Assembly: GCA_000145985.1 (NCBI GenBank) | Contig: CP002098.1 | Location: forward strand, 372,001 to 436,000 | Reading direction: 5' to 3' | Origin: Ignisphaera aggregans DSM 17230 | GTDB taxonomy: Archaea > Thermoproteota > Thermoprotei_A > Sulfolobales > Ignisphaeraceae | Length of the DNA: 64,000 bases | In this document: positions 12,106 to 49,172 of the stretch, piece after piece | Position numbering within the stretch: the stretch's first letter is position 1 | How the letters are laid out: each line of letters begins with the position of its first letter | Program-made: the position numbers and the translations under genes | Notes under the pieces: generated by a model | What the model was told of the DNA's origin: nothing | Seen by the model: only the letters and a program-made list of their open reading frames with translations | The model's database searches: none

Positions 12106-12294
12106 ATGAATAGAGTTATAATAACTATGATAATAGTATTGCTAATATCATCAATAGTATTTTTAGGTATATCAACATGGTTACTATATATAGAGAAACC
12201 GTTACAAGCTCTTCTTTCACTAGTAATAGGGATAATTTTACTTAGTGCTTCTTTATCATTGGCAAGAGAATATAGTATGGAGAGTAGTAGATAG
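12106..12294 (+). CDS. small two-helix membrane protein
   Basis: The protein has 62 residues and two hydrophobic helices (about 5-27 and 32-50) with a charged C-terminal tail (AREYSMESSR). It lies 33 nt after the previous membrane protein on the same strand and is probably the last gene of the MoxR operon. No family is recognised. Confidence 0.55.
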   Translation: MNRVIITMIIVLLISSIVFLGISTWLLYIEKPLQALLSLVIGIILLSASLSLAREYSMESSR

Positions 12295-12310: not shown

Positions 12311-12324
12311 AAAAACTTTTATAG
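12311..12324 (+). promoter_or_regulatory. BRE/TATA promoter of the box C/D sRNA
   Basis: An A-rich BRE-like run followed by CTTTTATA is centred near 12320. Transcription would start about 26 nt downstream, at 12343-12347, exactly where the sRNA C box begins. Confidence 0.5.
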
Positions 12325-12342
12325 ATATATAACATAGAGAGT

Positions 12343-12399
12343 ATTCTGATGAAGATTTGCATCCTAACTGAACTGTGATGTATACGAACCCCTCTGATA
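12343..12399 (+). ncRNA. box C/D guide sRNA
   Basis: The order and spacing are those of an archaeal C/D guide RNA: C box CTGATGA (12346-12352), 15-nt spacer, D' CTGA (12368-12371), 3-nt gap, C' GTGATGT (12375-12381), 12-nt spacer, D CTGA (12394-12397). A TATA element lies about 26 nt upstream and a T-rich tract follows (12404-12425). By the rule that the residue paired with the fifth base upstream of D or D' is methylated, the predicted targets are G in AGGGGUUCGUAU (D guide) and G in UUAGGAUGCAAAU (D' guide). The target RNAs are not identified. It would direct fibrillarin-dependent 2'-O-methylation of rRNA or tRNA. Confidence 0.75.
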
Positions 12400-12445
12400 C
12401 ATAGATTTTTATTTATCTATCTTTAGATTTAAAATAGGTGGTTTT

Positions 12446-13690
12446 ATGTCTAGAGAAATAGATATTAGAATTGATAAGGAGATGAAATGGGCTCTAGATG
12501 TACTTATAAATATGATTAATATCCCTACCGTTAATCCTCCTGGGAAGAGTTTTTATGATTTTGCTGAATATATATCTAAGGTTATGGAGTCTATCGGAAT
12601 GTCTGTAAAGGTTATTGAAGTTCCTAGGGATATTGTTGAGAAGATTTGTAGAGAGTGTGCTGATAGTCCTAGGTATATAGTTATAGGTAGAATTGATGGT
12701 GGTAAACCTGTTATTCAATTCAATGGCCATTACGATGTTGTTCCTGCTGGAGAAGGGTGGAGCTTTGATCCATTTAAAGCTTTTATCGATGGTGATAAGG
12801 TGTATGGTAGAGGTTCTGTCGATATGAAGGGAGGTATTGCATCGATACTATTAGCAGTAAAAATCTTTACATCTATATACAGGGAGTTCAATGGATCTAT
12901 AGAAATTGCTCTCGTTCCGGATGAGGAGATAGGTGGTGATAGTGGTACTGGGTATCTAGTATCAGAAATCTCTAGACCTAACTATGCAATAATTGCTGAG
13001 GGGAGCGGCTCTAGTAATATTTGGATAGGTCATAAAGGTGCTCTATGGGGCTATATAGAGGTATATGGTACACAAAGTCATGGTTCAACTCCTTGGCGAG
13101 GTATAAATGCATTTGAATATATGTCTAAAATTGTCATGAGGATTATTGACGAATATAAACCTTTTATAGAGATGAGGAAGAGTAGCTATGATTATGGTGA
13201 TCCTAAAGGAAATATACCAACTATTAATATAGGTGGTGAGGTAAGAGGTTCTACAAAGATAAATATAGTTCCAGGATACTATGCATTTTCATTTGATAGG
13301 AGAATTATTCCAGAGGAGAATATTGATGATGTTGAGATGGAGTTAAAGAGCTTTGTAGATAGATTGAGGAGGATATATCCTGAGGTAAATATAGAGATGA
13401 AAGTTGTAAATAGATTAGCACCAGCAATAACAAAACCTGATAGCATACTTGTCAAAATAGCTATAGAGTCCATAGAAAATGCCTTAGGGATAAAACCAAA
13501 ACCTATAGTATGTCTTGGGGGATTAGATCTACATTACTATACTGAGAAAGGAATAGATGCTATATCCTATGGTCCTGGACCTGAGGAAAATGCCCATATA
13601 GCAAATGAATATGTACTCATATCTGAGATTAGAAATGTTGCAAAAAGCTATGTATACATGTTGTCAAAACTACTTGGTGTAGATACTTAG
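12446..13690 (+). CDS. M20-family metallopeptidase / amidohydrolase (ArgE/DapE type)
   Basis: This is a zinc-dependent aminoacylase, deacetylase or dipeptidase of the M20 family. GHYDVVP gives the ligands H95 and D97; GRGSVDMKGG gives the bridging D126; PDEE gives the catalytic E160 and ligand E161; a late His lies in ENAHIAN. The lid domain lies at about 190-300. The exact substrate is open; ArgE, DapE and LysK relatives all share these motifs. The ATG is preceded by AGGTGG. The gene lies just downstream of the C/D sRNA but probably has its own transcript or reads through. Confidence 0.9.
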   Translation: MSREIDIRIDKEMKWALDVLINMINIPTVNPPGKSFYDFAEYISKVMESIGMSVKVIEVPRDIVEKICRECADSPRYIVIGRIDGGKPVIQFNGHYDVVPAGEGWSFDPFKAFIDGDKVYGRGSVDMKGGIASILLAVKIFTSIYREFNGSIEIALVPDEEIGGDSGTGYLVSEISRPNYAIIAEGSGSSNIWIGHKGALWGYIEVYGTQSHGSTPWRGINAFEYMSKIVMRIIDEYKPFIEMRKSSYDYGDPKGNIPTINIGGEVRGSTKINIVPGYYAFSFDRRIIPEENIDDVEMELKSFVDRLRRIYPEVNIEMKVVNRLAPAITKPDSILVKIAIESIENALGIKPKPIVCLGGLDLHYYTEKGIDAISYGPGPEENAHIANEYVLISEIRNVAKSYVYMLSKLLGVDT

Positions 13691-49115: not shown

Positions 49116-49172
49116 GTATCAGAAAGCTTACCGATCATCACATATCAGTTAGGAGGTGCACACATCACTCCT
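49116..49172 (-). ncRNA. box C/D guide sRNA
   Basis: On the minus strand the order is C box GTGATGT (49168-49162), 13-nt spacer, D' CTGA (49148-49145), 3-nt gap, C' GTGATGA (49141-49135), 12-nt spacer, D CTGA (49122-49119), exactly the archaeal architecture. A TATA-like GTATATAAGT lies at 49211-49202, about 30 nt upstream. Predicted targets are C in AAAGCUUACCGA (D guide) and G in UUAGGAGGUGCAC (D' guide) by the fifth-base rule. The target RNAs are not identified. It sits between apgM and the ROK kinase gene. Confidence 0.75.

Follow-up and report, generated by a model that had tools for sequence, protein, structure and literature searches.

A box C/D sRNA gene of Ignisphaera aggregans and its most likely target, tRNA-Gln in its D and T arms

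Among the systems closest to the one described here, the tRNA-Gln of Sulfolobus acidocaldarius receives C/D-guided methylation at U34 and G18 (PMC7668247), and the tRNA-directed C/D sRNAs of Pyrobaculum, in the account of Lui et al. (2018) given in PMC7994747, set one guide on a tRNA and leave the other without a target. The described example in which both guides fall on one tRNA is the RNA of the tRNA-Trp intron (PMC7994747). According to the same source, a TATA-like element lies within 50 nt upstream of only about 20% of archaeal C/D genes.

The gene considered here belongs to I. aggregans AQ1.S1, a hyperthermophilic crenarchaeon with a genome of 1,875,953 bp, in which the genome paper counts 52 RNA genes (PMC3035270). 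That genome is one contig, and the window—the whole 64-kb stretch of DNA that we analyzed, bases 372001-436000—supplies the positions given below unless a contig is named. An earlier note on this DNA had proposed a box C/D guide sRNA with its own promoter. Box statistics, homologues in three related genomes that keep boxes and guides, and sub-threshold matches to Rfam sR families bear out the sRNA, and because of them we conclude, judging from the sequence, that the feature, about 50-56 nt long, is a genuine, unannotated archaeal box C/D sRNA gene. As for which RNA its guides were kept to find, the most likely answer is the D and T arms of tRNA-Gln.

The gene and its relatives

The gene is flanked by a 62-aa ORF and an M20 peptidase gene, which lie 151 bp apart, all on the + strand; MoxR-type ATPase and DUF58 genes stand farther upstream. 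Its parts and neighbors are these (boxes, TATA-like element, T-rich tract and small ORF as read in the sequence; pairing and +5 nucleotides as predicted):

12106..12294, + strand: 62-aa membrane-protein-like ORF, upstream of the sRNA
12317..12332, + strand: TATA-like element AAAAAAC TTTTATAGATATATAA, centered about 26 nt 5' of the C box
12346-12352, + strand: CTGATGA, the C box as first proposed, 15 nt before the D' box
12349..12355, + strand: C box ATGAAGA, RTGAAGA in 4 of 4 homologues (I. aggregans included), 12-nt spacing
12356..12367, + strand: D' guide TTTGCATCCTAA, pairing with the tRNA-Gln D arm (7 Watson-Crick and 3 G-U pairs), +5 at G23
12368..12371, + strand: D' box CTGA
12375..12381, + strand: C' box GTGATGT, 3 nt (ACT) after the D' box
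12382..12393, + strand: D guide ATACGAACCCCT, pairing with the tRNA-Gln T arm, +5 at G53
12394..12397, + strand: D box CTGA
About 12406-12417, + strand: T-rich tract, 3' of the sRNA
12446..13690, + strand: M20-family peptidase gene (Pfam PF01546), whose orthologue lies 3' of the sRNA in two relatives

Read directly, the four boxes (C, D', C' and D) stand in the proposed order and place on the + strand, and the pattern TGATGA-N9-16-CTGA-N2-9-TGATGN-N9-14-CTGA is matched once in the 64-kb window, against 0.0025 matches expected from first-order Markov sequence with both strands counted. What did not hold is the register of the C box and, with it, the first of the proposed spacings of 15, 3 and 12 nt: the CTGATGA taken as a standard C box begins with C, not R, and we rejected it as the conserved register because the homologues keep RTGAAGA (here ATGAAGA), 3 nt downstream. 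That shared motif places the conserved C box at 12349-12355 and makes the spacing 12/3/12, with guide intervals of 12 and 12 nt, inside the range of about 10-13 nt for box C/D RNAs. The D', C' and D boxes are perfect; the C box is one base off the RUGAUGA consensus, yet it is kept in four genomes. The C/D pairs can be read off as G3-A4, A4-G3, A5-U2 and G6-C1, which suits a kink-turn, with its tandem G-A and its pair between the sixth nucleotide of C and the first of D; the A5 opposite U2 of box D gives a Watson-Crick pair where U-U is usual. A terminal stem is weak in I. aggregans and better in two relatives (G004 and G010 below), and the single-strand fold of the sRNA is no better than that of shuffled sequences, which is what one expects of C/D sRNAs.

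The TATA element predicted about 26 nt before the C box was found at 12317-12332, although it is weak evidence by itself because the surrounding DNA is AT-rich. The predicted T-rich tract is also there, possibly a termination signal or a piece of the next gene's promoter, and a T-rich stretch likewise lies 3' of the homologues; transcription could also run from the sRNA region into the M20 gene by read-through. A scan of the locus for bacterial promoters and terminators found nothing, as expected for an archaeon.

The homologues come from three congeneric genomes, G004, G009 and G010 (I. aggregans being G000), and all three keep the RTGAAGA, D', C' and D boxes and both guides. Those of G004 (ATGAAGA-AGCGCATCCTTTT-ATGA-TTG-ATGATTG-GTACGAATCCCG-CTGA) and G010 (ATGAAGA-GACGTGTCCTTGA-ATGA-TTG-GTGATTT-GCACGAATCCCG-CGGA) lie at the same place, upstream of the M20 orthologue, and in G004 a 68-aa upstream ORF resembles, by eye, the 62-aa ORF. 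The G009 copy (GTGAAGA-AACGCATCCTTA-CTGA-ATT-ATGATGA-GTAGCGAATCCCT-CTGA) was found by a pattern built from the G000, G004 and G010 sequences, whose other matches were without boxes; it stands beside other genes, with no M20 gene behind it. Two contigs of the G010 assembly (L146 = C22 and L153 = C53) each carry the M20 gene and an identical sRNA, through either a true duplication or assembly redundancy. A search for related loci by means of the M20 protein yielded 5, all of them distant. Loci L010, L011, L012, L017, L023 and L027 were chance matches in which the boxes are absent. Locus L005 (G019:C11; E 0.008) has the linker and C box in common with the family and looks like a C/D RNA whose C box (GTGAAGA) and D box (CGGA) are degenerate, with 12/3/12 spacing and a D guide that makes 10 bp with 23S GUACCGUGAGG; because its guides fit 23S instead, we have not counted it as a homologue.

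Against Rfam, the sRNA gave no match at the gathering threshold (best 17.6 bits, against 36). At a relaxed threshold, archaeal sR box C/D families made up 8 of the 10 best matches, and the top three cover 12345-12399 end to end, at 15-18 bits.

Other C/D sRNAs were seen as well. The window holds a second one, at 49119-49168 on the - strand (GTGATGT-GTGCACCTCCTAA-CTGA-TAT-GTGATGA-TCGGTAAGCTTT-CTGA), whose D' guide pairs over 11 bp with AGAGGAGGTGCAT, a site conserved in the 16S of four relatives. Two candidates lie close together on the - strand of L056 (I. aggregans, near C1:1740600); for one of them, with TAGGTCCGCTT as D' guide and TAGAACCCGAGT as D guide, there are relatives in G009 and G010 in which the D guide has hardly changed, and no target stood out clearly.

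Two guides and one tRNA

We set the guides against every tRNA detected in the four genomes and against the SSU and LSU rRNAs of relatives. In 4 of 4 genomes, tRNA-Gln pairs through its D arm with the D' guide and through its T arm with the D guide, by 8-10 bp each when G-U is counted. The first pairing takes in CAAGGAUGCGGG, from the D stem into the anticodon stem (nucleotides about 20b-28), and the second CGGGGUUCGAAU, in the T stem and loop (nucleotides about 49-57); in all four genomes, the complementarity covers position +5. For both guides, tRNA-Gln is the top tRNA in G004, G009 and G010 (level, in the case of the G010 D guide, with tRNA-Arg(gcg)), and it is the top joint tRNA in G000. 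The paired parts of tRNA-Gln are identical in all four genomes; the guides differ from genome to genome and still make their 8-10 pairs. A site for the D' guide in the anticodon loop of tRNA-Leu(UAG) was set aside, at only 6 bp.

The earlier note had expected guide targets in rRNA or tRNA, with at least 9 bp of complement in a stable RNA. In the rRNAs compared, no common site emerged; for tRNA, tRNA-Gln proved the best common target. The length is reached only with G-U pairs counted, because in I. aggregans the D guide makes 8 contiguous Watson-Crick pairs with the T arm (then one mismatch and 2 more) and the D' guide 7, with 3 G-U, on the D arm. Counted as contiguous Watson-Crick pairs, 9 were not found in I. 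aggregans, and the D' guide has 9 in G004 and G009; that number is the prediction cut-off of PMC4644070, not a defining trait.

How surprising is such a fit? Taken over four genomes, the joint score for tRNA-Gln is 174, against a column-permuted null with mean 121 and sd 8, and it was reached in 0 of 1500 permutations; the three genomes found by synteny gave 0 of 1500 on their own, and single genomes 3-4 of 1500 (G000 alone, 3). The null is somewhat lenient, because the same test gave a control sRNA family a z of about 3.4 (2 of 200), with sites that differ among genomes. Consistency of the site across genomes is a stronger argument for tRNA-Gln than the permutation score. In a scan that scored the guides at the same positions across 44 tRNAs and the SSU and LSU of relatives, tRNA-Gln came first for the D' guide (87.5; best rRNA 74) and tied for first with tRNA-Arg(UCU) for the D guide (86.5; best rRNA 84.5, at a site found only in G009). 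Unrelated single sRNAs reach joint scores of 46-48 against pooled tRNAs; because a joint score for one sRNA does not discriminate by itself, the case for tRNA-Gln rests on the four-genome test. Since the guides best match two arms of tRNA-Gln, the sRNA probably directs the marking, and perhaps the folding, of that tRNA and not of rRNA. We think it likely that this box C/D sRNA uses its two 12-nt guides to bind the two arms and direct methylation there.

Methylation, folding and other readings

The RNA would fold into two kink-turns (C/D and C'/D') and, we infer, would be bound by L7Ae, Nop5 and fibrillarin. Both guides would pair with the same tRNA, tRNA-Gln in both isoacceptors, and the +5 rule (from PMC4644070; tRNA numbering from the ARAGORN layout) makes G23 (D') and G53 (D) the nucleotides that fibrillarin would 2'-O-methylate. 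Methylation would probably take place on pre-tRNA or unfolded tRNA, at about 90 °C, and the grip on both arms could also aid the folding of tRNA-Gln. Transcription, protein binding, methylation and a folding role are all proposed here from the letters of the gene and its targets. If they hold, G23 and G53 would be added as modification sites of archaeal tRNA-Gln; to our knowledge, neither is a known methylation site of archaeal tRNA.

In I. aggregans, position 5 of both guides forms a C-G pair with tRNA-Gln. The D guides of G004, G009 and G010 have a U at position 5, opposite G53, a wobble at the very nucleotide to be methylated, so that the guide for the T arm may serve for binding and not for methylation; in G004 and G010, the D' box (ATGA) comes one base later, so that the D' site becomes G22. 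The exact methylation site is, that is, poorly conserved and the binding well conserved, which leaves room for a chaperone role. Might the RNA, then, pair with the two arms of tRNA-Gln chiefly to help it fold, as a chaperone that methylates little or not at all? The arms to which its guides pair are the ones that come together in the elbow of the tRNA, and a chaperone role has been proposed for double-guide sRNAs on rRNA (PMC7994747), but I. aggregans keeps the C', D' and D boxes and the 12-nt spacing that methylation requires, along with the C-G at position 5, and we hold so pure a chaperone to be unlikely. Guided methylation of the two arms remains our preferred account.

A sRNA in G011, a genome of the same taxonomic family, bears on the wider picture. 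It lies at about 595-645 of L313 (G011:C24, near 12800), shares the D guide (AAACGAACCCCT; also given as ACGAACCCCT) and has a different D' guide. Among G011 tRNAs, its best joint partner is elongator tRNA-Met, with pairing to the D loop and to the T arm and a score matched by 2 of 3000 shuffles. The parallel to tRNA-Gln is suggestive only, because joint scores of that order against pooled tRNAs are also seen for unrelated sRNAs. One might speculate that relatives of Ignisphaera possess a class of double-guide C/D sRNAs, each holding a particular tRNA by its D and T arms (tRNA-Gln in the present case, elongator tRNA-Met in that of G011) and serving as its folding chaperone in a life near boiling, with methylation secondary; we consider this unlikely.

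Somewhat less probable again is a box C/D sRNA that acts on rRNA (the 16S or 5' 23S of I. aggregans) or whose guides are partly orphan. rRNA is the target of most archaeal C/D sRNAs, and 28% of Pyrobaculum guides have no recognized target (PMC7994747); moreover, the organism's own 16S and 5' 23S read as 5000 N (L039 2502-7501), and the comparison used the SSU and LSU of relatives. There, the D guide makes 9 bp with the 23S of G009, at a site not conserved in G000 or the others, and in seven SSU/LSU sequences, no site fits the four D' guides as well as tRNA-Gln does. No rRNA site in those relatives fits both guides across the four-genome family, whereas the window's other sRNA finds its 16S site readily, with 11 bp. 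A near-universal 23S site, AGGGGUUAAUAU, was rejected as a target because it pairs by 7+3 only.

A kink-turn that acts in cis as the leader of the M20 peptidase mRNA, and through which L7Ae controls translation, would account for the position of the element (about 48 nt 5' of the M20 start codon, on the same strand, an order kept in G004 and G010), and L7Ae-bound mRNA elements have been reported (PMC5539422); G009, however, has both guides and no M20 gene behind them, and conserved guides are unexpected in a leader, so that we consider this explanation very improbable. Chance, finally, can make short boxes in AT-rich DNA with a fold no better than shuffles, but the small expected number of matches and, above all, conservation in three further genomes effectively refute it, and we assign it next to no weight.

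The gene beside known systems

Apart from its predicted two-arm targeting, this is an ordinary unannotated guide RNA gene of a kind already known. The unusual part is the predicted arrangement—one tRNA addressed at two of its arms by the two guides, a match that outlasts guide base changes in four genomes—and the family makes a tRNA-chaperone or paired-methylation role directly testable. In the order C, D', C', D, in its two guides of about 12 nt and in its length of about 55 nt, the sRNA is like the archaeal sR7, sR9, sR28 and other families of Rfam, with which it aligns, sub-threshold, over the whole I. aggregans gene in covariance-model comparison; it differs in its unrelated guides, in a family-wide C box of RUGAAGA rather than RUGAUGA and in scores of at most 17.6 bits against gathering scores of 36 and more. 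Unlike most archaeal C/D genes, it has a TATA-like element (12317-12332). With S. acidocaldarius it would share box C/D guidance of the same tRNA, but the sites differ, G18 and U34 there and the predicted G23 (D stem) and G53 (T stem) here. The tRNA-targeting sRNAs of Pyrobaculum, as PMC7994747 relates them from Lui et al. (2018), likewise address structurally conserved regions, with one guide on the tRNA where the Ignisphaera sRNA is predicted to place both on the same one. Closest in this respect is the box C/D RNA of pre-tRNA-Trp in Haloferax and Pyrococcus (PMC7994747), which also sets both guides on one tRNA; it is a tRNA intron that acts on C34 and U39, whereas the Ignisphaera sRNA is a separate intergenic gene whose guides would reach for the D and T arms.
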